Shown here in pieces: positions 3,404 through 41,392 of a stretch of 64,000 nt of DNA. This stretch comes from Desulfitobacterium metallireducens DSM 15288. GTDB taxonomy: Bacteria > Bacillota > Desulfitobacteriia > Desulfitobacteriales > Desulfitobacteriaceae. The position numbers and the translations under genes are program-made. The stretch covers positions 2,356,001-2,420,000 of the forward strand of contig NZ_CP007032.1 of NCBI RefSeq assembly GCF_000231405.2. Direction: 5' to 3'. The first letter of the stretch is position 1; every line of letters starts with the position of its first letter. The notes under the pieces are model-generated. The model had not been told where the DNA came from. It saw only the letters and a program-made list of their open reading frames with translations, and did no database searches.

Positions 3404-3607
3404 TTTCGGGTCGTGTAGCTTCTCACCCATCCGTTCACTTAGCGCTTCTGGGCTGGCACACTTGATTCCGTGGGAGCTTCGCCAAACCTCAGGGTAATAC
3501 CTTATGTGAACCATGGGCTACGCTAACCCACAGAACCAACGTGCGCCTTAGCGCCCTTCCGCGAAAGCGTTCACTCCTGTGCGAGAAGCTACGCTATCGG
3601 GTTTCTT
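3404..3607. repeat. Family A intergenic repeat with terminal inverted repeats (MITE-like), full copy
   Basis: The stretch between the ATPase and rqcH has no credible gene. It has perfect 10-base inverted ends, GTAGCTTCTC at 3415-3424 and GAGAAGCTAC at 3583-3592, each flanked outside by CGGG. The left half (3407-3513) recurs at 41229-41392, between gcvH and gcvT. A piece like the right end recurs near 37889-37916, and a short look-alike lies near 424-441. A 93-codon minus-strand frame across it is not a gene. No transposase is present, so it would be a non-autonomous element if mobile at all. Confidence 0.7.
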
Positions 3608-3657: not shown

Positions 3658-5517
3658 ATGGCCTTAGATGGTGTAACCCTAAATCATCTTGTTAAAGAAC
3701 TCGCTCCTCAACTCATTGGAGCGCGCATTGATAAAGTCGTTCAACCTGAGAAGGAAGAAATTCATCTTTATCTCCGCAATCAGGGCAAGTCGTTGCGCTT
3801 GCTTTTAAACATAAGCGCCACCGCTGCTCGATTGCATCTCACTCAAGAAAACAAAAAGAATCCAACATCCCCGCCCATGTTTTGCATGATTCTGCGCAAA
3901 CACCTTGAAGGCGGGAAAATACTCAACCTTGAGCAAATTGGACTCGAGCGGATCGTTCTCATCACCGTGCAAAACTACAATGAATATGGAGACCTTGCCA
4001 CACTCCAGCTTTATCTGGAAATCATGGGCAAACACAGCAATCTAATCCTTGTTGATCCTGTAAAGCAAGTTATACTTGATGGGATAAAACGCTATTCTCA
4101 TGCCGTTAGCCGCCATCGCGAAGTCCTACCCGGCCGCACCTATATCATCCCCCCTTCGCAAGGAAAATGGGATCCCATTTCCGAATCAGAAGAAGAAACG
4201 TTTCGCTCTGTGCTTTTAAAAGATGAAATCTCCGGTAAGTTAATCGACCTGCTTGTCAAACACTTCAATGGTATCAGCCCAGAACTTGCACGGGAAGTCG
4301 TGGTCCGCGCAGGACTCAGTCTAACAATCCGGCTTGAACAATGCGGAGATATTGACCTTTCCCGAGTTTTCCAAGGATATCTTACACTAGCTAACCCTGA
4401 TACCCTGCCTCAAATCGAGCCTTGTCTTTATTATCAAAGTGATGCCCCCTCAAAAAAAGGACTTCCCACAGCCTTTACGTTTGTCCCCTTCCAGCAATAT
4501 CAGGGCTTAACGGCTGAAACTTTTTTCTCTCTCGATGCAGCCATTGAACGCTTCTATCACTCTAAAGCTTCAAACAATAATCTCGAGGCCAAACGCGGCT
4601 CACTCCGTAAAATCGTGCAGGAAAATCTACACCATATGAATAAAAAGCTTAGCATTTATGAAGAAACGATGGAAAACGCTGAGAAATCGTTTAAATATTC
4701 CAGATGGGGTGAGTTAATCACCGCGAATCTTTACCGAATAACCCCGGGAATGACTGAAATCACCGTTGAGGATTATAATGAAGAAACACTCCCCCAAATT
4801 ACGATTCAACTAGATCCTCAACTAAGCGGGATCGATAATTCGCAACGTTACTACCGACTCTATAACAAGGCTAAGGTCACCTTACAAAAGACCGAACCAC
4901 TTAAAGCAGCGAGTTTAAATGAAGTGAACTACTTGGAGTCTGTTCTTCTCAGTCTCGAACAAGCCTCCACTCCTTCGGAAATTGAGGAAGTCCACAAAGA
5001 GTTAATCGATCAAGAATACCTTGCCGGCAAGCATATCAACAAAAGCAACCCTAAAAAGGCGAGCAAATATCCGAACAAAGCAAATGCGAAGAAAAAACAA
5101 GGAAATAAGCCGGAAGCCCCTCAACCTAAGACCTATCTTTCGAGCGAAGGTCGGATGATTTTAGTAGGAAAAAACAATCGACAAAACGATTGGCTCACTC
5201 TAAAAAAAGGTCGTCCTCAAGACCTTTGGCTCCACGTTAAGAACATTCCCGGTTCTCATGTCCTCATTCCGCTCGAGGATGGAGAGGAATTTCCCGATGA
5301 CACCACCCTCGAAGAGGCAGCAGCACTGGCTATTCACTTCAGCCAAGCCAAAGGATCAAGCCAAGTGCCTGTGGACTATACGCATGTTAAGAATATTAAA
5401 AAGCCGAATGCCGCAAAACCAGGTATGGTCATTTATGAAACGAACTGGAGTTTGTATCTTACACCAAAGCCGGAGGTAATTGAGCGGTTGTTGTCCACGG
5501 AAAATGCAGATGAGTAA
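3658..5517 (+). CDS. rqcH: Ribosome quality control protein RqcH (NFACT family, formerly FbpA-like)
   Basis: 619 residues with the chosen start. RqcH binds obstructed 50S subunits carrying peptidyl-tRNA and directs C-terminal alanine tailing of stalled chains; older annotation calls it a fibronectin-binding protein. Visible features are the NFACT-N domain at the start (MALDGVTLNHLVKEL, then ARIDKVVQ), a central coiled-coil region, a lysine-rich linker (about 460-485) and the C-terminal NFACT-R domain with DLWLHVKNIPGSHV (from about 522). The frame is open 12 codons further up, but AAAAGGAG precedes the ATG at 3658 and the family starts there. It is the only intact plus-strand gene in the window. 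Part of its NFACT-R coding region is repeated at 5755-5890. Confidence 0.93.
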   Translation: MALDGVTLNHLVKELAPQLIGARIDKVVQPEKEEIHLYLRNQGKSLRLLLNISATAARLHLTQENKKNPTSPPMFCMILRKHLEGGKILNLEQIGLERIVLITVQNYNEYGDLATLQLYLEIMGKHSNLILVDPVKQVILDGIKRYSHAVSRHREVLPGRTYIIPPSQGKWDPISESEEETFRSVLLKDEISGKLIDLLVKHFNGISPELAREVVVRAGLSLTIRLEQCGDIDLSRVFQGYLTLANPDTLPQIEPCLYYQSDAPSKKGLPTAFTFVPFQQYQGLTAETFFSLDAAIERFYHSKASNNNLEAKRGSLRKIVQENLHHMNKKLSIYEETMENAEKSFKYSRWGELITANLYRITPGMTEITVEDYNEETLPQITIQLDPQLSGIDNSQRYYRLYNKAKVTLQKTEPLKAASLNEVNYLESVLLSLEQASTPSEIEEVHKELIDQEYLAGKHINKSNPKKASKYPNKANAKKKQGNKPEAPQPKTYLSSEGRMILVGKNNRQNDWLTLKKGRPQDLWLHVKNIPGSHVLIPLEDGEEFPDDTTLEEAAALAIHFSQAKGSSQVPVDYTHVKNIKKPNAAKPGMVIYETNWSLYLTPKPEVIERLLSTENADE

Positions 5518-5543: not shown

Positions 5544-5567
5544 AGGGACAGGCAAATGCCTGTCCCT
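5544..5567. terminator. Long palindrome after rqcH, probable terminator
   Basis: GGGACAGGCA and TGCCTGTCCC form a near-perfect palindrome 27 bases past the rqcH stop, followed by CTTTAAGTCTTTC. The T-tract is weak on the plus strand and somewhat better on the minus strand (CTTTTCTTTT). Confidence 0.5.
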
Positions 5568-5588: not shown

Positions 5589-5778
5589 TTAAGCTTTCTT
5601 AACTTTCTTGTGCCCACACACCAGGCAATTTTGATACAGCTCCTTGGTTTTAGTCTCATCTTTAAAGTTGATGATAATAAAGCTTTTATCGGGTAGTAAG
5701 AAACACATACGGACCTTTGTTTGTTTGTTTCCATAAATAGTTAAAAGAGGGACACCTTCAAGATCTTTAACTCCATAT
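5589..5778 (-). pseudogene. Unrecognised open-frame remnant with a CLVCGHKK tail
   Basis: About 62 codons are open on the minus strand from a stop upstream of 5778 to TAA at 5589. The translation ends ELYQNCLVCGHKKVKKA and reads like protein, with a small Cys-x2-Cys-x-His group. There is no good start codon or ribosome site, and its first 24 bases overlap the rqcH relic on the other strand. It may be a gene fragment or chance. Function unknown. Confidence 0.2.
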
Positions 5779-5890
5779 TAAAAATATACCTGGCTCGATG
5801 TTTTAATTCCCCTTGAGGATGGAGAGGAATTTCCCGATGATGCGACCCTCGAGGAGGCAGCAGCACTGGTCACTCACTTCAGCCAAATAT
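5755..5890 (+). pseudogene. Relic of a second rqcH copy (NFACT-R fragment)
   Basis: This stretch matches rqcH 5214-5347 at roughly 80 percent by hand count. The homology is clear from codon patterns: many differences are synonymous (GAT/GAC, CAT/CAC, AAA/AAG, CCT/CCC, GGC/GGT). The relic has the DLWLHVKNIPG tryptophan codon changed to TAA and one base missing just after IPGS. The later part still reads IPLEDGEEFPDD, as in rqcH. It sits at the edge of the polysaccharide island, directly before the end of the TagD-like gene. Synonymous divergence suggests an old duplicate or a donor-derived ortholog rather than a recent duplication. Confidence 0.8.
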
Positions 5891-5897
5891 TTTATTC

Positions 5898-6329
5898 TTA
5901 GATTTTGCTTAAGACATTTCTTAAAAGTGTTGATGAAGTATTCTGGGTATAGGGAACATAAATGACAGTGACACCTTTTTTAGCTAATTTCTCTTCTATT
6001 GTTATATAATGATTACTGCCTTTCCAATCATCACCGACAATGAGAACGTCAAATCTATATTTTTCATAAGCCATAATCTTGTTTCTACTTGTCACCGGCA
6101 CAACCTTATCTACATACCGTATGCTCTCAACAATTGCAATACGCTCAGTCGTGGGAATGACTGGCGTTTTTTTCTTATATTCTTGGACAAGCTCATCTGT
6201 ATTAACACCGACAATAAGAATCTCGCATATCTCTTTTGCACGCCGCAATATATTTAAGTGCCCGACATGGAATAAATCAAAAACGCCTGCTGTATATCCG
6301 ATTAGATATTTCTTTTTTTGTGAATTCAT
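5898..6329 (-). CDS. Glycerol-3-phosphate cytidylyltransferase-like nucleotidyltransferase (TagD/GCT family)
   Basis: 143 residues, close to the 130-145 of TagD-type enzymes. The HxGH nucleotide-binding motif is at 21-24 (FHVGH), preceded by GYTAGVFDL. The C-terminal signature reads TQNTSSTLLR instead of the RTEGISTT of classical TagD, so the alcohol-phosphate substrate is uncertain. CDP-glycerol or a related CDP-activated group for decorating a surface glycan is the best guess. It is the last gene of the polysaccharide island and is separated from the flippase gene by a terminator at 6452-6479, so it probably has its own promoter, which I could not place. A weak AGGTG precedes the ATG. Confidence 0.8.
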   Translation of the reverse strand: MNSQKKKYLIGYTAGVFDLFHVGHLNILRRAKEICEILIVGVNTDELVQEYKKKTPVIPTTERIAIVESIRYVDKVVPVTSRNKIMAYEKYRFDVLIVGDDWKGSNHYITIEEKLAKKGVTVIYVPYTQNTSSTLLRNVLSKI

Positions 6330-6451: not shown

Positions 6452-6479
6452 AAAGAAAAGCCCAACCCCAAGGTTGGAC
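6452..6479 (-). terminator. Terminator after the flippase gene
   Basis: The minus strand reads GTCCAACC, a short loop, GGTTGGGC, then TTTTCTTT. It lies about 50 bases past the flippase stop and should end the polysaccharide operon. Confidence 0.7.
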
Positions 6480-6527: not shown

Positions 6528-7937
6528 TTAAGACTCCCTATCTCTAAATTTTAGACAAAAAAACGATGATATGTATTTCTGATTGTAAAAAACATTTAAC
6601 ACCAAAATGCTGAGAAATATAATAATCTGAAATAATATAACATTTTTCTCTACAAAAGACCTTATAATAGCTTGCACTGTCAAAAGAAAAATGCTAAAAA
6701 ATAAGTAAAAGTATTTTACATCAATTTGCGAATATTGTTTTGTGTTAAACATTCTTACTATGACAATAATAAAGTAACTCACTATGTTTGAATATACAGC
6801 ACCATATACGCCGATTTTCGGTATCAAAACAAAACACCCAACTACGTTCACAACAGCCCCGATTACGGTACTGACCATACTCATTAAGTTCTTCTTGACA
6901 GCCAGATAAAAAGTTCCGAAATATATAGAGTAGCAACCTAAAACTGCAGATACCAGTAACAATGGCACATAATGCCAGGCCTCATAGAAGTCACCTCTCA
7001 ACACAATACGAGAGATAAGTGGCGTGAAGAAAATAACCGCAGAACCTGCCAACACAATAAAGGCCGAGTAGAATTCAAACACCATAGTGAAAAATTGTTT
7101 ACTATCTTGGCTCTTGCTTTCCTTTGATGCTGAAAACTGCCAGGCTTGCTGAAAGATTGTCGCCAACAAGTTTATCATGGATGGTAATTTGCAAGCGGCA
7201 GAAAACATTCCGGCAATTCCGATGCCGCAAACAGCGCTGACAATGTATCTGCTGAATACATTATTAAACCACCACGAAACCATATTGGGCACATTGGGCA
7301 GTGAAAAAATAAGCATTTCTTTCTGCATCTCTTTACTTGTTCTCTTTATGTTGCAGTATTGTCCGATATGTACACTAAAGAACAAATATACTGCCGCCAT
7401 GACATTGGATAATATAATGGCAAGCAGATATCCGGAGGTTTCAAGCTTCAGCGCTAACAAAAACAACATATTAAAGCCGAGAAGAGATAATGTATTTATA
7501 ATGCCACTAATAACAAATTTTTTAATATGTCCCATACCGCGTGCAAAATTTGCAAATAACGAGCGAGTTGCATTTGCCATATACAAGGCCAAAAAGAAAC
7601 ATGTATATTCGTACTTAATAAATATATTTCCAACTAGAATAATTACAGACACAATCGCAAAGCTTATTAGCAATACATTTAAACCAATATTAAATATTTG
7701 CTGTTTGTCACTATCTTCATCAATGACAAATCGATAAACCGCATCTGAAATACACAATGTAGCAACCGGTAAAAACAGCTCTATGGAATTATTTAGTAAA
7801 TCCGCAACGCCATACTGCTCAGTTGTTAATGTAGTAGTATACAAAGGCATTAAAAAGAATAGTATTACTTTCGAAAATACGTTCCCTATTGCAAAAACAA
7901 ACGTATCTGATAGTAATCGCATAAATTTACCGTTCAT
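6528..7937 (-). CDS. Oligosaccharide flippase (Wzx/MATE-like, MOP superfamily)
   Basis: 469 residues with about 12-14 hydrophobic segments. The start, VFAIGNVFSKVILFFLMPLYTTTLT, is typical of polysaccharide exporters that flip undecaprenyl-linked repeat units to the outer face. The gene is AT-rich compared with the flanking core genes. It follows the EpsG-type polymerase by about 40 bases, and a terminator lies downstream. Together with the polymerase and the Wzz-like protein it completes a Wzx/Wzy-dependent pathway. The sugar unit cannot be predicted. Confidence 0.88.
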   Translation of the reverse strand: MNGKFMRLLSDTFVFAIGNVFSKVILFFLMPLYTTTLTTEQYGVADLLNNSIELFLPVATLCISDAVYRFVIDEDSDKQQIFNIGLNVLLISFAIVSVIILVGNIFIKYEYTCFFLALYMANATRSLFANFARGMGHIKKFVISGIINTLSLLGFNMLFLLALKLETSGYLLAIILSNVMAAVYLFFSVHIGQYCNIKRTSKEMQKEMLIFSLPNVPNMVSWWFNNVFSRYIVSAVCGIGIAGMFSAACKLPSMINLLATIFQQAWQFSASKESKSQDSKQFFTMVFEFYSAFIVLAGSAVIFFTPLISRIVLRGDFYEAWHYVPLLLVSAVLGCYSIYFGTFYLAVKKNLMSMVSTVIGAVVNVVGCFVLIPKIGVYGAVYSNIVSYFIIVIVRMFNTKQYSQIDVKYFYLFFSIFLLTVQAIIRSFVEKNVILFQIIIFLSILVLNVFYNQKYISSFFCLKFRDRES

Positions 7938-7979
7938 CTAGTCTTCTCCAATATTTGAAGTAACTATCAATAATGATAC

Positions 7980-9101
7980 TTAGTGCTGCCAAAAAAATTC
8001 ATAGGGATAAATATAGTTCCAATCCGGCCGATATAACTGTATAGTCGTGAAATATATTGTGAACGCAACAATAACCACAGCTGTCAACAAAACTGATAAA
8101 TTTTTATTTTTAAAATTTCTCAGTATATTTGGCAGATATACTATTGAAAATACACTAAAATATTCACTCATACGATCCAGCAGATTGAATTTAAATGAAA
8201 TAACTGTAACTGATAAACTAAACATCAAAAATATAGTCATGATTTGATTCTCGTTATTTTCTTTTATTGTCGCAATCCCATTCTCATTTACCAATTTTGA
8301 TTCCCTTTTATATGCTCCAGAACATAATCCAACCAGAAAAATACAAAGTGTTATTCCGAAACTCACCACGCTTGCAGTTCTTATTCCTCCTTCCATATAT
8401 TTTCCCCCTAGATAATACTGATATATAGGTAAATATGAGAACAGTACATTTAAAGCACGAGTAAAAACAATATAGACTACAATTGTTCCAGCCGTAAACG
8501 CTCCAATAGTCTTATAATTAATTCTCATTTTCGAAATGGGATATGCCAGTACAAATACAATCGCTGTTTTGTGAAAGGTTGTCGCCAATATTACACAAAT
8601 AAGAAACGGCAGTATTTTTTTTCGCTTAATAAAACTATAGGAATAAAGCAAAACAATCATTGCTATGCATTGTCTAAGTATATTCACGGCACTTCCGAAA
8701 TATCCCATAACCAAAAATAAGTAAACGCTCAGCCATACATTCATCGAATATTTTCGTATAAAACGTGCATATCCAACAATTAGTATTAAACTCGTTATTG
8801 CTAATAAGACCTGTGGATTCCCATTGATTATGCTTACTGCCTTGTTATAGTACAGATAGCCCAACTCATAACGGCTATTCGTATTCAAGTCTTGAATGGA
8901 CATGCGTGATATATTTTCAAAAAGCCAAACATAAGTCTGCGTGTCATTTCCTATAGTATGTGCTCTCAAAGCAGCCAAAACAAACAGTACACTCATCGTA
9001 CAAAACAAATATATACTATCTTTTTTACCATGCTGTTTTCCATAGTACAGTATCAAAGCCGCTATCAAGAAATATCCCATAAGGCCGTAATACAATGACA
9101 T
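7980..9101 (-). CDS. EpsG-family polysaccharide polymerase (Wzy-like)
   Basis: 373 residues, almost entirely membrane-embedded (about 10 segments). The early loop reads LRAHTIGNDTQTYVWLF and is followed by RYELGYLYYNK, matching the R-x-x-x-x-G-x-D-T-x-x-Y and E-x-G-Y pattern of EpsG proteins. It presumably polymerises lipid-linked repeats outside the membrane. Its ATG overlaps the stop of the upstream glycosyltransferase by one base, showing translational coupling. Low GC sets it apart from the core genes. Confidence 0.82.
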   Translation of the reverse strand: MSLYYGLMGYFLIAALILYYGKQHGKKDSIYLFCTMSVLFVLAALRAHTIGNDTQTYVWLFENISRMSIQDLNTNSRYELGYLYYNKAVSIINGNPQVLLAITSLILIVGYARFIRKYSMNVWLSVYLFLVMGYFGSAVNILRQCIAMIVLLYSYSFIKRKKILPFLICVILATTFHKTAIVFVLAYPISKMRINYKTIGAFTAGTIVVYIVFTRALNVLFSYLPIYQYYLGGKYMEGGIRTASVVSFGITLCIFLVGLCSGAYKRESKLVNENGIATIKENNENQIMTIFLMFSLSVTVISFKFNLLDRMSEYFSVFSIVYLPNILRNFKNKNLSVLLTAVVIVAFTIYFTTIQLYRPDWNYIYPYEFFWQH

Positions 9102-10222
9102 TATCTTTCGTCTCCAGACATTTCAACATATATTTTTTCTAATTTTTTGGCTTCTTCGTTGATGTCAAGTCCTGCTAATTTAATTTGCTCTGTTGTGTCA
9201 TTTCGATTATGAACCATTGCCTTTTTAATTATCAGTTCACTCCAATTTGAAAGCGAAGCAGATAATTTTAGATGATCCACATTGGTAATATCAATTTCTT
9301 TTGTGACCTTATCACTCATGACACACGGCAGTCCTGTCGACTGTGCTTCTATGCCGATTACCGGCAATCCTTCATATAGAGATGGAAGTACAAACACATC
9401 CATCGCCTGCAACAAATCTGGTATATCACTACGTTGACCCAAAAAGAAAACAAAACCGTTCAATCCTAGATTCTCAACCTTTTGTTTGATCTTCTTTTCT
9501 AGCGGTCCTCTGCCAACAAGCATTAATACTGTGTTATTGTTCTTTTTGTGAATTTCATTAAAAATATCAATTAAGAACACATGGTTTTTTTGCTCAGTAA
9601 ATCTTCCCACGTGACCAACTACCACTTTTCCTGTGAGCCCTAGTCCATTACGTACATCATCACGAACGGTTTCATTATATTGAAACCTCTTGCAATTAAT
9701 CGCATTATTGATAACCATCACTTTTCCAGCACGTATTCTCTTTTCCCCGTACAAAAATGTACCTGCAGCTTTTGAACAGGTAAAGTAGTGATTAGCTTGA
9801 CGTTTTAGTGGAAAGCAAAGGATACGATTGCGCAATGCCTTAATTTTATTGTCAGAAAACATAGTAGCATGGCTATGTGTGATAATATGTTTTATACCAT
9901 TTTTCTTTGCAATTGGAGCAAGGAAAAAGGTGAGATATACCTCATGATTATGTAATGCAACATATTCGTTCGCATGCCTTGAGAAAAAGTGATTATACTG
10001 CATACATGTCGCTAGCCTGAAACCAGGCTTGACCAAACAGAATGTATGGCCACCTAAAAACTCTATTTCTTCTTTGTACGTTCCCTCTATTTCTTTAAAA
10101 TACAGAAAGTCAAATTGAATTTTTTCACTATTTATATTGCGAAAGTAATTCATGATGAATCCCATGACACCGCTGCCTGTGCTTAGGCTAGACACTACAT
10201 GCAAGATTTTAATCTTTTCCAT
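9101..10222 (-). CDS. Glycosyltransferase family 4 (EpsF-like)
   Basis: 373 residues with a GT-B fold pattern. The N-terminus is KILHVVSSLSTGSGVMGF, with a donor-acceptor linker near 170-200 and GHVGRFTEQKNH opening the C-terminal domain. The EX7E motif reads EGLPVIGIE near residue 285. It transfers a sugar from a nucleotide donor to the growing lipid-linked oligosaccharide on the cytosolic side. It overlaps the polymerase gene by one base. Donor and linkage are unknown. Confidence 0.87.
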   Translation of the reverse strand: MEKIKILHVVSSLSTGSGVMGFIMNYFRNINSEKIQFDFLYFKEIEGTYKEEIEFLGGHTFCLVKPGFRLATCMQYNHFFSRHANEYVALHNHEVYLTFFLAPIAKKNGIKHIITHSHATMFSDNKIKALRNRILCFPLKRQANHYFTCSKAAGTFLYGEKRIRAGKVMVINNAINCKRFQYNETVRDDVRNGLGLTGKVVVGHVGRFTEQKNHVFLIDIFNEIHKKNNNTVLMLVGRGPLEKKIKQKVENLGLNGFVFFLGQRSDIPDLLQAMDVFVLPSLYEGLPVIGIEAQSTGLPCVMSDKVTKEIDITNVDHLKLSASLSNWSELIIKKAMVHNRNDTTEQIKLAGLDINEEAKKLEKIYVEMSGDER

Positions 10223-10225
10223 TCA

Positions 10226-11053
10226 TTAAAACTCCAAACTGTAAGGTCTATGTCCTACCCTTTTCTCTGATGGAGGCAACATCATATAGTCACCGTAGTG
10301 ATGTTTTAAATACGAATTCACATGTCCTGGGCAATTTACTTCAACACCTTCAAAACTGATTCTATCTACCTTCTCAAGATCTATGCTCGGTATTTGTAAA
10401 TACGAATATTTAACAAAAGCTTTTACTTTGCTAGGTGTCTGATTGTATTCTTGACACTCTAAATCAAGTTTTCTATATAAGATCTTTTTAGGAACAAGAA
10501 TCAAAACAATATGAAGTAATTTCCTGACCGCAATTTTTAATCCGCCTATCACCCCATGTTGTGGTTTGCTTGACCCTGTTAAACATTTAGCTATGAAGAA
10601 ATTGGAAATAATGTTCACTTTTAGATGATGCTTTTTTCTCTGTTTCAGGTTATCAGGAATATTATCAAAAGGAAAAATATCAACAAAAACACCATGATTA
10701 ATATTTAAGTTTGCACAATATTCTTCAATAAATTTCGTTCCGTTTTTTCTAACTTTTGCACAATAAAAGGGCGAATTGGGCTCTGTTTCTACCGTCTGTA
10801 AAAACAAATCTTGTGGCAATTTTTCCTGCGCTATTGATAAAAAATGATCATAATTTTCTCTAGTCATTCCAATGTCAATATCATCGTCCCATGGAATAAA
10901 CCCGCCATGACGAACGGCCCCCAGTGCCGTTCCATTAATTATGAAATAGATAATATCATTTTCATCACAAATACGAACTATCTCTTTAAATATACTCAAT
11001 ATTATTGATTGAACTTTATTTAGTTCCGTGCCGTATTCCCCTCTATTTCCCAT
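10226..11053 (-). CDS. LicD family phosphotransferase
   Basis: 275 residues. The signature NGTALGAVRHGGFIPW is followed by DDDIDIGM, the LicD/fukutin-like nucleotidyltransferase-fold active site (residues about 42-65). Family members attach phosphocholine, phosphoglycerol or similar groups to glycans. No choline uptake or licC gene is visible; the island carries only the TagD-like enzyme at 5898-6329, so a CDP-glycerol-type donor is a reasonable inference. It lies 3 bases upstream of the GT4 gene in the same transcript. Confidence 0.85.
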   Translation of the reverse strand: MGNRGEYGTELNKVQSIILSIFKEIVRICDENDIIYFIINGTALGAVRHGGFIPWDDDIDIGMTRENYDHFLSIAQEKLPQDLFLQTVETEPNSPFYCAKVRKNGTKFIEEYCANLNINHGVFVDIFPFDNIPDNLKQRKKHHLKVNIISNFFIAKCLTGSSKPQHGVIGGLKIAVRKLLHIVLILVPKKILYRKLDLECQEYNQTPSKVKAFVKYSYLQIPSIDLEKVDRISFEGVEVNCPGHVNSYLKHHYGDYMMLPPSEKRVGHRPYSLEF

Positions 11054-11098
11054 TTTTATTTTTCCTCCGACGTATTGCTCGCAGCTTAATGTAAATTT

Positions 11099-12106
11099 CT
11101 AAACAACTATTGAGTTTTTCCTCCAGCTCGGCATTTTAAATAAGCCTACCAAAGTTCCGACACCATAACTGACATGCAATAAAAGGAACAAGGTCGGTAA
11201 CGCCGATGACGATACATTAAAATTTTTCTTTTCAACCGATAATACCGCCATCAAAATTGCAACTATCCAGTAAGCTCCCCACATCAGCATGCCCAATTGT
11301 GGCAATCCAAAGGTCGCCAATAGACTTGTAATGATGATTCCCAGTACAAACGCAAACGGCACGAAATGGTAGAGTGAAAAGCATTTGGGTGAAATACCTA
11401 TTGTTAAACCTATCCAATACCCATTAAGGAATTTTTGCTTTATCATCTTCACTAGACTATTTCTTGAGAAATGGTACGATTTGATTTTTGGCGAAAAAAA
11501 GAACTTATACCCTGCCTCCCTCATTCGGTAGTGAATCTCGTTATCCTCAGTTCGGACTAATCTTTCATCATATCCCCCAACACGCTCAAAAACCTCTCTG
11601 CTATAGGCTGCATGTGCAAGTGTATTTACATATTGCGGAGAATTAGCATTACGGTATTTAGCAATACCACTGCCAAACATTGATTTTTCAGCCATCAACA
11701 ATGTACACTGCCAATTGCTACTCTCATCAATAATACTTATCCTAGGACCTCCTGCAATTTTCTCGCCACTTTCCATACAAATTACATTCTGACGAATGAA
11801 GTCAGCAGGTATTTTAGAGTGTGCATCAACTCTTAAGATTACATCGCCTTGTGCCTCCGATAAGGCAACGTTCCAGCCACAAGGTAATATCTTTTGTGGG
11901 TTATCTAGCACACATACTCTTCTGAATAAACCTTTATATGCTTCGCGGAAATTCTCCATTACATTTTTTGTTTTATCGCTTGAGTTGCTGTCGACCAAAA
12001 TAGTCTCTATTTTCTTATGTTCGTAGTCTTGCTGTAAAAGATTATTCAGAACATTAGCTATTCTATCTTCTGCATTGTATGCAACGATAATAAATGATAC
12101 AAGCAT
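11099..12106 (-). CDS. Glycosyltransferase family 2 (ExoA-like, membrane-anchored)
   Basis: 335 residues from the chosen start. The GT-A core opens MLVSFIIVAYNAEDRI, with ILVDSNSSD, and RVDAH as the DxD-type motif near residue 95. RTEDNEIHYRMREAG follows near 185. At least two hydrophobic segments close the protein (about 240-330). The frame is open 20 codons further up, but GGGGAGG just before the ATG at 12106 and the family start argue for this one. The order of action among the glycosyltransferases is unknown. Confidence 0.86.
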   Translation of the reverse strand: MLVSFIIVAYNAEDRIANVLNNLLQQDYEHKKIETILVDSNSSDKTKNVMENFREAYKGLFRRVCVLDNPQKILPCGWNVALSEAQGDVILRVDAHSKIPADFIRQNVICMESGEKIAGGPRISIIDESSNWQCTLLMAEKSMFGSGIAKYRNANSPQYVNTLAHAAYSREVFERVGGYDERLVRTEDNEIHYRMREAGYKFFFSPKIKSYHFSRNSLVKMIKQKFLNGYWIGLTIGISPKCFSLYHFVPFAFVLGIIITSLLATFGLPQLGMLMWGAYWIVAILMAVLSVEKKNFNVSSSALPTLFLLLHVSYGVGTLVGLFKMPSWRKNSIVV

Positions 12107-12166
12107 ATGATACCTCCCCGCAAGCCTCATATCCCCTTTTAAAACAACGGGTACAATATTACTCAA

Positions 12167-12976
12167 CTAAAAAAAGTTTAAGCGCCAACGTTTTTTTCCT
12201 GAATTTCCTTTACCTCGTGATTTTGTCCGTATGAATTCCCCTTGAAATTCAGTTCTCTGAATAGCCCCTTGCGTAAGAACCGCTCGAGGGTTTCTTTGCA
12301 TGAGGATATCCTTTCCGTCCTCACCTAACGAATCTCCTAACAAAGCCAACTCCCTCAAAAAGGGTTCATTTTCTAAACTCGGGTGATGGGTATCCGTACC
12401 TACCAAAGAAATCATATGATGTTTAAGTAGCCATAACGCAACTTCTTTAGGTCCCGATCCATAACGTCCGCTTAAGCTCCTCAAATTGAGCTGATACAAC
12501 ACTCCCGATCCAGCCCAATGTTCAAGAAGTGCCCGGTCATTCATGATATAGCTGTAGCGTTCGGGATGAGCTAAAACCGGATGATAACCTGCTACTTGAA
12601 GTTCAAAGAAGACCTTCTCAACATAATGAGGAAGTGAGAGTACGGGGAGTTCTACCAGCAGGTATTTCCCCTGCCCTCCAAGCGTTAGAATCCTTCCTTC
12701 TTTGACATAACGAGGCAGTTGCGGAAAGAGGTAAATTTCTGCACCAGGAAGTACTTCCAACGGAATCTCCTGTTCCCGTAAAATTTTATTTAGTTGTTCT
12801 ACAGACTTGCGAATTATTTCCGGGGAAAGAAATGACTTCCCCCCAAGGACGTGAGGGGTAGCGATCACCTGAGTATAGCCCACCTGAACTAGCTGTCGTG
12901 CAAGAGTGATGGCCTCTTCAAAATCCCTGACCCCGTCATCGAGACTGGGTAGTATATGGAGGTGGGTATCAATCAA
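12167..12976 (-). CDS. cpsB: PHP-type protein-tyrosine phosphatase (CpsB/YwqE family)
   Basis: A manganese-dependent phosphatase that removes phosphate from the BY-kinase tyrosine cluster and so tunes polymer length. Metal-binding motifs: IDTHLHILPSLDDG at the start, ATPHV near 45, GAEIYLFP near 80, AHPERYSYI near 135 and GTDTHHP near 190. The frame extends 15 codons up to an ATG at 13021 without a ribosome site. A TTG at 12976 has AGAGGGGTG seven bases upstream and gives the family start M-I-D-T-H, so I chose it; confidence in this start is about 0.65. It follows the kinase gene by about 45 bases with this start. Confidence 0.9.
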   Translation of the reverse strand: MIDTHLHILPSLDDGVRDFEEAITLARQLVQVGYTQVIATPHVLGGKSFLSPEIIRKSVEQLNKILREQEIPLEVLPGAEIYLFPQLPRYVKEGRILTLGGQGKYLLVELPVLSLPHYVEKVFFELQVAGYHPVLAHPERYSYIMNDRALLEHWAGSGVLYQLNLRSLSGRYGSGPKEVALWLLKHHMISLVGTDTHHPSLENEPFLRELALLGDSLGEDGKDILMQRNPRAVLTQGAIQRTEFQGEFIRTKSRGKGNSGKKRWRLNFF

Positions 12977-13021
12977 AAAGTTCACCCCTCTTTGAACCTG
13001 TAAGCTTGAGCATTTTTTCAT

Positions 13022-13720
13022 TTATGCTTTTTGGCTTGATCGCTGATCATAAGAATAGTAATAGTAATATTCTTTAGTCTTCATTTCCATTTTGTTCAGT
13101 ACGATACCCAAGATTTTAGCTCCGACTTTTTCCAACTGTTCCTTGGCTTGCACAGCATAGTCACGGCTGACTTCCCCAGATGCCAAAACTAAAACAACTC
13201 CATCCACGGATTGAGCCAATATGGATGAATCCGTCACGGCAATCGTTGGTGGAGAATCGATAAGCACAATATCATAGGCCTCAGCCGCTTCGCTTAAGAG
13301 TTGTTTCATTCGCTTTGAACCAAGTAGCTCGGCAGGATTCGGCGGAATTGGGCCTGATGTCAAGAGCTCTAAACCTTCTTGGTCCGTCTTTTTAATATAA
13401 TTCAGAATTGGGAGTCCCTCATCCACGAGTAATGTTGTCAATCCTTCACAGTTATCTTGACTCAATATTTTGTGTTGGGTTGGATTGCGAAGATCTGCAT
13501 CGATAATAAGCACCTTCTTATCCGTTTGTACCATCATCGATGCAAGATTAGCAATTGTTGAAGATTTTCCTTCTCTTGGGCCAGTACTGGTAAATAGAAT
13601 TCGTTTAACAACCCGATCAACATTGGAAAATTCGATATTCGTTCTCAGCGTGCGAAAAGCCTCAGAAATCGGCGACTTCGGGCTAAGCATGCTGAACAAC
13701 TTATATTCGCTCAAAATCAT
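13022..13720 (-). CDS. cpsD: Bacterial tyrosine kinase (CpsD/YwqD type)
   Basis: 232 residues. Walker A STGPREGKSS (45-54), Walker A' IIDADLRNP (near 72-80) and Walker B VLIDSPP are present. The C-terminal tail EYYYYYSYDQ is the autophosphorylated tyrosine cluster. The cytosolic kinase needs the adaptor encoded just upstream (13730-14428) for activity and controls chain length and export. It lies 9 bases after the adaptor gene, with AAGGG before its ATG. The kinase, adaptor and phosphatase trio is the standard Gram-positive arrangement. Confidence 0.93.
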   Translation of the reverse strand: MILSEYKLFSMLSPKSPISEAFRTLRTNIEFSNVDRVVKRILFTSTGPREGKSSTIANLASMMVQTDKKVLIIDADLRNPTQHKILSQDNCEGLTTLLVDEGLPILNYIKKTDQEGLELLTSGPIPPNPAELLGSKRMKQLLSEAAEAYDIVLIDSPPTIAVTDSSILAQSVDGVVLVLASGEVSRDYAVQAKEQLEKVGAKILGIVLNKMEMKTKEYYYYYSYDQRSSQKA

Positions 13721-13729
13721 CTTTCCCTT

Positions 13730-14428
13730 CTAGAGATCATCCGTCTCATAATGCGGGATCATTCCCAATACAGGAAGGCCCAGGAGATTCTCTGCATCGT
13801 GAGTCGTTTTGATGGTGTTATCCAAATATTCACGAAGAAAAGCCAAACCTATTGAGACCATTAACCCAATAACAAAGGCAATAAAAACATTAAGGATCTT
13901 GTTCGGTTTAACCGGTTTTAGCGGCGCGATGGCCTTATCCACAATACTGATACTATCTACTTTTTTAATATCCATAACTGCTTGAGAAAACTGATTAGCC
14001 ATCTCATTGGCTATTTGTGCTGCCTGCTCTGGGTTTATATCTTCAACAGTTATAGCCAGAATTTCCGTGTCTTTAACTGGAACGACGGAGATTTTACGAT
14101 CTAAAGTTTCAATAGCAAAAGGAAGATTCAGCTCCTTTATCACGTCATCTTCCACCGTCCGACTTTTAGCAATCGCACTATACGTTTTAACTAATTGCTG
14201 ATTTGCCATTAGAACGTCATAGTCGAGAATTTGGCCTGCTTGCTGAACTGGCAAATCAGATGTTTTTTTCCCAACGATCAGCGTCGTAGACGCTTGATAA
14301 ACGGGTTTAATCACAAAAAAACTGACAAGTCCACTCATTAAAGTGGCAATTAAAGGGATGGCTATAATCATACGCCAGTGCTTCTTAAGCATTTGCCAAT
14401 ACTGTTGGAGGTCGAGTTCTTCTTCCAT
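13730..14428 (-). CDS. cpsC: Wzz-type chain-length determinant, BY-kinase adaptor (CpsC/YwqC type)
   Basis: 232 residues with a membrane segment near 19-40, an extracytoplasmic domain, and a second segment near 176-198, just after a proline-rich KPVKPNK. The Wzz domain starts at DLQQYWQMLKKHW. The cytosolic C-terminal tail activates the kinase encoded next. AGAGGGGAGG stands before the ATG. It appears to head the biosynthetic part of the island; the 125-base gap to the LCP gene shows only weak promoter candidates. Confidence 0.92.
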   Translation of the reverse strand: MEEELDLQQYWQMLKKHWRMIIAIPLIATLMSGLVSFFVIKPVYQASTTLIVGKKTSDLPVQQAGQILDYDVLMANQQLVKTYSAIAKSRTVEDDVIKELNLPFAIETLDRKISVVPVKDTEILAITVEDINPEQAAQIANEMANQFSQAVMDIKKVDSISIVDKAIAPLKPVKPNKILNVFIAFVIGLMVSIGLAFLREYLDNTIKTTHDAENLLGLPVLGMIPHYETDDL

Positions 14429-14553
14429 TTAGTCCTCCCCTCTTACTTTTATATCAGTAATAACTGAACTGCAAAAACAATCATTTACTAAACTATATTA
14501 TTTAACAGGTTGAAAATATTACCATCTTATCCCAGATCCAATTATTTTTTAAA

Positions 14554-15513
14554 TTACCTTTCAAACGCTTCTTGTATGACTTTCTTAACGCCGTCTTTAT
14601 TCGGTTCATAATAATAAACCACTGCTCCTACTAACGGATCAAGAGCCGAAATTCCTTTTCCTGGTAACTGATAATATTTCATTGCTTCTTTATCTATCCC
14701 TTTGAATTCAACCCCCAGTGTTACCATCTCATAAATTGACATATTCGTATCGAGTAAATCCTGACGAATAGTGGTTATCAATTTGGGCAATTCAGGAATA
14801 TTTGAAGGAGCAAGCATTTGATTTGCTAAAGACTGAACGACATAAAACTGATTCTGCTGGCGGCCAAAATCTCCGTCTGGTAAATCATAACGAGCCTGCA
14901 CTAAGACAAGAGCCTCTTCCCCAGAAAGGTGATGTTCCCCCGCTGACAAATGAAGGTTTGACCTTCTGTCATTTACTGAACTGGGAAGACTCACGTCAAT
15001 TCCCCCAATGGCATCGACTACTTTTTCAAAACCTTTGAAATTTATCTTTAAATAATAATTGATGTCGACTTCTAACAAATTACTAACCGCTTTTACTGTT
15101 TCCAGCGTTCCCTCGTCGATACCCCCTTTTAACTCACCAACGACATTAGCGTGAGTAATTTTGGTCAGCCCCACCTCAGGAAGACTAACTCGGGTATCCC
15201 GTGGAATGGAAATGGCCGAAATCTGATGCGTATCACTATTGGCTGAAACAAGAATTATCGAGTCTGCTCTTCCTGGTTCATCACCTTTGTTATCAATACC
15301 AAGGAGAAGAATATTTACCCTTCCTTTTTCCTTTGGCACCGGCGATTCAGATTTACCTTTTTCCTCTTCTTCATTTCCTAGAGCAACCTCTGAGGGCTGA
15401 TAAACTACCATTGCCTGATCATGCGTTTGCCCTTTCCAGTAGAAAGCTCCGAGAGAAATTCCCAACATTCCAAAACTCAAAAGAATGCCTAGCCCCAATT
15501 TATTCAATTTCAA
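14554..15513 (-). CDS. LytR-CpsA-Psr (LCP) family cell-wall glycopolymer ligase
   Basis: About 319 residues. A single membrane anchor near the N-terminus (LGLGILLSFGMLGISLGAFYW) precedes the extracellular LCP domain, with NILLLGIDN, ADSIILV, SIPRDTRV and the late QARYDLPDGDFGRQQNQ region. These are the arginines and aspartates that bind polyprenyl pyrophosphate. It would attach the finished polymer to peptidoglycan. Two starts are possible: TTG at 15591 with AGAGG, or TTG at 15513 with GGGGTG. I chose the second because it places the membrane anchor directly at the N-terminus, as usual; certainty of the start is low. Confidence 0.88.
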   Translation of the reverse strand: MKLNKLGLGILLSFGMLGISLGAFYWKGQTHDQAMVVYQPSEVALGNEEEEKGKSESPVPKEKGRVNILLLGIDNKGDEPGRADSIILVSANSDTHQISAISIPRDTRVSLPEVGLTKITHANVVGELKGGIDEGTLETVKAVSNLLEVDINYYLKINFKGFEKVVDAIGGIDVSLPSSVNDRRSNLHLSAGEHHLSGEEALVLVQARYDLPDGDFGRQQNQFYVVQSLANQMLAPSNIPELPKLITTIRQDLLDTNMSIYEMVTLGVEFKGIDKEAMKYYQLPGKGISALDPLVGAVVYYYEPNKDGVKKVIQEAFER

Positions 15514-15622
15514 TATATGTTCACCCCATCCAATATCAGAAGTCTTTAATTTTGCCAAGCATATACTGAAATTTATGTGATTATGTACCAAACAGAACCT
15601 CTCGTTATGGAGCTAATTTAAC

Positions 15623-15777: not shown

Positions 15778-16353
15778 TTATATTGCCCTACTTCCAGGCT
15801 TAATCGCAGGAATACCTTCTGCACAAAGAGGACAGTTTTCAGGTTCAAAGGTCTCAATCTGAATCTTTAGCAAGGAGACATGAGGAAGACCAAAATCTGC
15901 TTTTCCCCCACTGCGATCGACTATAACCCCAACACCAACTGGCTCAGCCCCAAGTTTGCGAACGACTTCTAAAACCTCTTTCACCGATCCACCCGTCGTA
16001 ATAACGTCCTCTACAACTAAGACTTTTTGTCCAGGAGTAAGTTCAAAACCACGACGCAAGGTCATAACTCCATTTTCACGCTCTGTAAAAAGAACCTTAG
16101 TTCCTAACGCTCTTCCTACCTCATGTGCCACAAGAATTCCTCCCATGGCTGGCCCTATAACAACATCAATTCCTTGGTCTTTCCAAGCCTGAGCTAATTC
16201 TTCCCCTAAGCGAGCTGCATGATGAGGATACTGCAAAACCTTTGCACATTGCATGTATCGATTGCTATGTTTACCTGAGGTTAAGCGAAAATGGCCTTTG
16301 AGAAGTGCCCCGCTTTCCTCAAAAATATTTAAAACTTCTTCTGATGTAATCAT
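15778..16353 (-). CDS. pyrE: Orotate phosphoribosyltransferase
   Basis: 191 residues from the chosen start. It makes OMP from orotate and PRPP, the fifth step of UMP synthesis. The PRPP-binding motif is VVEDVITTGGS, preceded by the flexible-loop region TERENGVMTLRRG; GPAMGGI lies near residue 70. The open frame extends 33 codons up, but AAAGGGG precedes the ATG at 16353 (MITSEEVL). It is the last gene of the pyr operon and is separated from pyrF by about 290 bases of repeat-rich DNA, so coupling to the rest of the operon may be weakened. Confidence 0.93.
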   Translation of the reverse strand: MITSEEVLNIFEESGALLKGHFRLTSGKHSNRYMQCAKVLQYPHHAARLGEELAQAWKDQGIDVVIGPAMGGILVAHEVGRALGTKVLFTERENGVMTLRRGFELTPGQKVLVVEDVITTGGSVKEVLEVVRKLGAEPVGVGVIVDRSGGKADFGLPHVSLLKIQIETFEPENCPLCAEGIPAIKPGSRAI

Positions 16354-16404
16354 ACTTATTTGCCCCTTTCTAGCTATGTATCTTTTCTTAAATAATTCTT
16401 CGAA

Positions 16405-16557
16405 GCGAGTTACGATTACAGTAAGTGAGGACTCGACGCGAGCAGACACCAAGCTTAGGCATAACTGCTCCTACTTTAGTGGAACGAGTCACACGACGTG
16501 ACTCGCCGACTGTGAGCCAAGGATGGCGAATTGGGAGGGAATTCCACTGCTTAAATC
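16405..16557. repeat. Hairpin-rich intergenic segment between pyrF and pyrE
   Basis: No credible gene is seen. It contains a perfect inverted repeat CGAGTCAC-ACGAC-GTGACTCG (about 16484-16504) and a second, ACTGCTT-AAATC-AAGCAGT, which runs into the family B repeat starting at 16558. It looks like one compound repeat element inserted into the operon. Confidence 0.55.
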
Positions 16558-16630
16558 AAGCAGTTATTCCGGTAGCTTGGTCTGCGAGCGTACGTCAGAG
16601 TGTATGTAACGTAACTCTGCTTGCAAATTT
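16558..16630. repeat. Family B intergenic repeat, copy 1
   Basis: A 71-base stretch matches 28179-28249 at 61 of 71 positions by hand alignment, with no gaps. The best-conserved core is TGTAACGTAACTCTGCT. It includes CAGAGT and ACTCTG as a potential stem. It lies immediately downstream of the pyrF stop. Confidence 0.75.
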
Positions 16631-28076: not shown

Positions 28077-28178
28077 TCCTTTACCCTCCCCACAGTTCTT
28101 TGAATTCATCTTAACACAATGCAACCCTGCGGGGCAATCCTTAAGTAGGTTAGCAGCTTTCATATCGTAGCTTGCATT

Positions 28179-28250
28179 AAGCAGTTATGTCCTTAGCTTA
28201 GTCTGCGAGCGTTCGTCCGAGCGTCTGTAACGTAACTCTGCTAGCAAATC
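28179..28250. repeat. Family B intergenic repeat, copy 2
   Basis: Matches 16558-16628 at 61 of 71 positions without gaps. It lies just after the yteA stop and before lspA, in the same orientation relative to transcription as copy 1, which follows pyrF. Confidence 0.75.
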
Positions 28251-41228: not shown

Positions 41229-41392
41229 CGGGTCGTGTAGCTTCCCGCACATCCATTCACTCAGCGCTCCAGGGCTGACAGCGCCTTTTCCCATCCGTGG
41301 AGGCGCTTGCACTAGGCACGTCCATGTGCCGTCGGCGCACTCACTTTTGTGGCAGCTTCGCCAAACCTAAGGGTATTACCTGAAGTGAACCA
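41229..41392. repeat. Family A intergenic repeat, copy 2, inside the gcv operon
   Basis: The 214-base gap between gcvT and gcvH is mostly this element. It shares CGGGTCGTGTAGCTTC, TTCACT-AGCGCT, GCTTCGCCAAACCT and AGTGAACCA-type blocks with 3407-3513 in the same order. It has an extra internal piece of about 55-70 bases that contains GGCAC-GTCCAT-GTGCC as a stem. The right inverted end of the full copy is missing. Confidence 0.7.

Follow-up and report, generated by a model that had tools for sequence, protein, structure and literature searches.

A decayed partial copy of rqcH beside the polysaccharide genes of Desulfitobacterium metallireducens DSM 15288: a probable scar of recombination

The window, i.e. 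the whole 64-kb stretch of the D. metallireducens DSM 15288 genome that was analysed, contains one intact rqcH gene and, at 5741-5886 on the + strand, a relic of a second copy, the 146 bases of which pair with rqcH 5200-5346 (NFACT-R region, codons 515-563). The relic is a pseudogene fragment and cannot encode RqcH, because the start and the end of the gene are missing and the remainder carries a stop codon and a frameshift. It is probably a non-functional scar of recombination with a divergent rqcH allele; that the relic and the neighbouring glycan genes arrived in the same event is plausible, and is put forward only tentatively.

The relic and its neighbourhood

Self-comparison of the window (blastn) aligned 5201-5346 with 5742-5886 at 79.5% identity (E 5.9e-29), and ungapped repeat detection gave 87% identity over 5798-5886. 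When aligned in codon phase, the match extends from Leu515 (5200 in rqcH, 5741 in the relic) through the end of codon 563 (5346 and 5886, respectively), with 30 substitutions per 146 compared bases and one deleted base, located between 5796 and 5797, that shifts the frame. Both ends of rqcH are absent from the relic, and about 56 final codons are gone beyond 5887. The relic has the same orientation as rqcH and lies about 540 bases downstream; in a search of the whole genome (3,176,073 bases, single contig) the two were the sole copies, and no third copy was detected. A decayed second NFACT-R copy had been proposed in the preliminary description, with limits of 5755-5887 against rqcH 5214-5347: the copy itself is borne out by a significant collinear match, the change of TGG to TAA and the one-base deletion, whereas its exact limits had to be widened after codon-phased alignment. 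A 10-base overlap at 5759-5768 was considered as microhomology at the junction and was dropped, since the codon-phased alignment put the left end of the relic at 5741. The features of the region are summarized in Table 1.

Table 1. Features in and around the rqcH-pyrE interval (positions in the window)
Position	Strand	Feature	Basis
3658..5517	+	Intact rqcH, NFACT protein, 619 aa	Pfam NFACT_N 1.8e-145, NFACT-R_1 1.7e-14
5200..5346	+	rqcH segment paired with the relic	blastn, codon-phased alignment
5544..5567	.	Terminator-like hairpin, between convergent rqcH and broken bPH-type gene	Scan: 10-pair stem, minus-strand call
5592..5740	-	Remnant Y, last ~49 codons of a DUF3784/bacterial-PH membrane protein (probable)	Weak homology and family HMM
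5741..5886	+	rqcH relic, NFACT-R codons 515-563	79% identity, one nonsense codon, one frameshift
5768-5770	+	Nonsense codon TAA replacing Trp524 TGG	Alignment with local rqcH
5898..6329	-	Intact cytidylyltransferase gene	Pfam CTP_transf_like 3.6e-21, profile 1-132 of 133
6460..6479	-	Terminator-like hairpin, between wzx and cytidylyltransferase gene	Scan only
6528..15591	-	Polysaccharide genes: flippase, EpsG-type polymerase, glycosyltransferases, LicD, CpsB/CapC, tyrosine-kinase-like AAA, Wzz, LytR-CpsA-Psr	
15778..16452	-	pyrE, right border of the variable interval	Name from reading of translation

On its left side the relic adjoins remnant Y, which is probably the C-terminal part of a DUF3784/bacterial-PH protein truncated at about 5740. 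The match of Y to a protein of one relative (G041) is weak (36% over 39 aa, E 0.0016); this full-length protein carries Pfam PF12650 and PF10882, and a family HMM built without Y gave Y 18.2 bits, with 6.3 bits for the best of 5000 shuffles. The relatives of Y comprise about 245 residues, and Y is without the first 190 or so codons (the N-terminal three quarters). Y ends in a normal stop codon, its break coincides with the left end of the relic (about 5740), and its mechanical open frame, which runs to 5777, is antisense of the relic beyond 5740. Next to rqcH, none of the genomes examined showed an intact relative of Y, and the rest of the local genome yielded no intact DUF3784 gene. The truncated rqcH relic here meets the apparently truncated Y, and this abutment of two broken genes suggests that the join at about 5740 was illegitimate and not made by a clean homologous exchange. 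Remnant Y and its junction with the relic are additions to the preliminary description. On the + side, the hairpin between rqcH and Y is accompanied by a short stretch of T.

On the right side, the stop codon of the cytidylyltransferase gene is found 11 bases past the end of the relic (5886). The hairpin at 6460-6479 may mark the end of the glycan operon, short of the relic. The GC content is about 45% in rqcH and 31-39% past the relic, and goes up again from about 11500, in agreement with the earlier placement of the relic at the start of the AT-rich glycan side. The link between the relic and the glycan genes is positional only, with the same hairpin and the separate cytidylyltransferase gene standing between them.

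Further structured or repeated sequence was observed outside this junction. A structured sequence immediately 5' to rqcH, with a fold of about -74 kcal/mol over 240 nt, has two blocks (85% and 89%) in common with another part of the window (3407-3513 and 41229-41392, self-blastn) and is possibly a dispersed repeat of the genome. The pyrE-pyrF spacer contains an 80-base sequence (16549-16628) that recurs with 84% identity at 28170-28249, between two other genes; it is a probable second dispersed intergenic repeat.

Divergence of the two copies and comparison with relatives

Third codon positions account for 16 of the 23 substitutions between relic and rqcH in the core alignment (129 columns) and for 19 of the 30 in the extended one. 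When the same base-change spectrum was put randomly on the local rqcH sequence, the third-position count was reached in 0.02% (core) and 0.01% (extended) of the trials, and the synonymous codon count in 0.04% and 0.07%, respectively; Nei-Gojobori estimates for relic and local rqcH are dN 0.066 and dS 0.97. The third-position and synonymous excess, together with the ratio of dN to dS, argues that most of the divergence accrued while both copies were under coding constraint, i.e. as working genes, and not through decay from the start. The earlier view that the third-position bias marks an allele of old or foreign origin rather than a fresh duplication was thus upheld (p 0.0001-0.0007 against neutral decay). 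Later decay probably accounts for the stop codon, the frameshift and some of the missense changes (Ala to Val, Ile to Thr); among the missense differences, Ala549 is also present in rqcH of the Desulfitobacterium group, as is expected of a real allele.

The relic was placed among 43 rqcH sequences, a comparison set in which the local genome is the only member of its genus; the close sequences are those of Desulfosporosinus, Desulfitobacterium and Acididesulfobacillus. The local rqcH was nearest to the relic (82% of 128 core sites; runner-up, 76%), the two were sisters with a support of 96/96, and their third-position identity was 0.62, compared with at most 0.51 between the local gene and that of any other species. 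The segment is short (146 bases), synonymous sites are saturated against all other species, and placements that join the relic to sequences of the Desulfitobacterium group were not rejected by the AU test (p 0.13 and 0.17). The expectation that the relic would be closer to another species than to the local rqcH was therefore not borne out; a closest match to the local gene, which had been named as evidence against a scar, was indeed obtained, and it weighs little in a set of sequences without a congener. The relic may be the allele of a near relative outside the sample, or an old paralogue.

No donor allele was found among the 43 rqcH sequences, the relic DNA had no match in plasmids and phages, and its exact 26-base pattern (see below) was absent from the viral contigs. 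Similarly, a search of the other 44 family genomes, able to detect the relic, yielded no second NFACT-R copy comparable to it, and there was none around rqcH in the loci examined except for a fragment at a contig end of a metagenome-assembled genome (MAG; G029). In the latter, a second rqcH C-terminus lies at 9763-9897 of locus L138 (G029:C71); it was rejected as a parallel to the relic, being at the contig end of a fragmented and partly contaminated assembly, and is probably due to strain mixture or contamination. Apart from this fragment, the same relic was not found in relatives with another interval, an occurrence that the preliminary description had held to count against a scar. The possibility that the 3' end of the intact rqcH is itself the newcomer was examined by tracing the gene's identity to the two closest genera in a sliding comparison, which showed no clear switch; synonymous sites are saturated in this comparison.

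The rqcH-pyrE interval in the Desulfitobacteriaceae

Comparison of the rqcH-pyrE interval among relatives, as proposed earlier, revealed a different content in nearly every one of the Desulfitobacteriaceae examined, with lengths of 1.6 to 13.4 kb (loci L094-L105). The interval contains genes for cytochrome b561 and a multihaem cytochrome c in genomes of the Desulfitobacterium group, and a type I phosphodiesterase gene or redox genes in other relatives; several relatives (including G008 and G017) have larger inserts, and in some pyrE was not found within about 15 kb of rqcH. An interpretation of the interval as a turnover hotspot is supported. No direct repeats of note frame it. The local genome contains no close copy of the relatives' cytochrome b (27% at best) and no match to their phosphodiesterase (in a search run without a positive control), an absence that is expected if the interval was replaced in the local genome. 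One further relative (G003) has apparent CRISPR-associated genes in the interval, as read from the sequence only. A search for a donor of the glycan island by way of Wzx gave a best match of 38% identity, outside the family but within the phylum; at this low identity the match was rejected as the donor island.

Origin of the relic

For the probable origin as a recombination scar, the following course of events is proposed. The relic allele, whose divergence was constrained, would have evolved as a working gene in a lineage that we infer to have been separate and closely related. Uptake of related DNA would have rearranged the rqcH-pyrE interval and placed this allele beside the resident rqcH, probably by homologous pairing at one end of the incoming DNA and an illegitimate join at the other. 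In such a join, rqcH broken at about codon 515 would have been fused to the broken bPH-type gene at about 5740; the truncation of the relic is seen directly, that of Y is probable, and the mechanism is deduced from both. A second break or a later deletion at 5887 would have removed the last 56 or so codons, which are plainly absent, in an order of events that is conjectural, and the relic would afterwards have acquired its stop codon, frameshift and missense changes. Two directions may be considered: the relic may have entered with the DNA on its right, including the glycan genes, or it may be the old resident copy, with the intact rqcH and remnant Y as the newcomer from the left. The single homologous exchange at rqcH that was envisaged earlier would yield a chimeric rqcH without a second copy; a clean exchange of this kind was rejected, because a truncated second copy that adjoins a truncated neighbour requires at least one non-homologous end.

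A variant that overlaps with the scar is a foreign relic in whose 3' half gene conversion removed some of the differences from the local rqcH. Over the core, identity to rqcH rises from 72% (first 54 bases) to 89% (remaining 75), the two copies agree without a difference over 26 bases (5815-5840), more than would be expected (p 0.04), and the first part is slightly nearer to genes of the Desulfitobacterium group (80% and 78%) than to the local gene (72%); however, the contrast was not significant when the breakpoint was left free (permutation p 0.09), and the segment is short, so that conversion is possible and rather doubtful. An ancient tandem duplication of rqcH within the lineage, with both copies long functional and the second then broken and mostly deleted, would agree with the relic and the local gene being mutually nearest, with their common orientation and short distance, and with the failure to find a donor. 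Against it, no family genome searched has an intact second rqcH, two copies kept to a dS near 1 and then lost in all sampled species are less economical, and the truncated Y at the junction is left unexplained; we regard this origin as unlikely. A recent local duplication with neutral decay would likewise place the relic nearest to the local gene and could leave the 26-base run, but neutral decay is rejected by the third-position and synonymous excess; a fresh local duplication is thus an unlikely source, and very improbable in the form of neutral decay.

A function for the relic is unlikely, because it has no Rfam match, folds in an ordinary manner and was not found in relatives. If the minus strand were transcribed, an antisense RNA from the glycan side could pair with the rqcH mRNA through 26 perfectly complementary bases; this or another functional element is barely credible, as the locus has no match in Rfam, the + strand fold is ordinary (z 0.75), the terminator-like hairpin at 6460-6479 separates the glycan operon from the relic, and relatives were not found to have the relic.

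The recombination scar has known counterparts, and the relic is most likely a fresh instance of this kind and not a new system. The capsule island of Neisseria meningitidis contains a truncated galE2 remnant (Region D'), which has been explained by illegitimate recombination (PMC5349592); like the relic, it borders a polysaccharide locus that is exchanged horizontally and is what remains of an additional, truncated copy of the housekeeping gene next to that locus (PMC5349592). In galE2, 615 nt are kept, whereas the relic comprises 146 decayed bases, and galE2 lies in an inverted repeat at the opposite end from galE1, with inversion of the locus possible, whereas the relic lies on the side of the intact rqcH and points the same way (PMC5349592). 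Furthermore, the galE2 remnant carries a divergent allele; the divergence of the relic is coding-constrained, yet the local rqcH is its nearest sampled gene, and the relic is known here from one genome, not from a population. Homology-facilitated illegitimate recombination has been described for S. pneumoniae, Acinetobacter and P. stutzeri and proposed for the T6SS arrays of V. cholerae (PMC5361080), and is also known in B. subtilis (PMC6382021). It would give one homologous and one non-homologous end, a broken resident gene and fragments; for the relic, this process is a possible one, suggested by the anatomy of the junction. As to the RqcH/NFACT family, the relic derives from the NFACT-R domain, but with 49 codons, a stop and a frameshift it is not a gene.

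It is improbable, at present, that rqcH-pyrE serves the family generally as a site where surface-glycan and accessory genes are exchanged, with leftover partial rqcH copies that provide landing homology for later exchanges, like the duplicated flanks at capsule loci. The relic leaves the knowledge of RqcH and of capsule locus movement unchanged; its junction with remnant Y is one concrete record of gene exchange in an anaerobe, beside polysaccharide genes, and rqcH-pyrE is marked as a variable interval across the Desulfitobacteriaceae.
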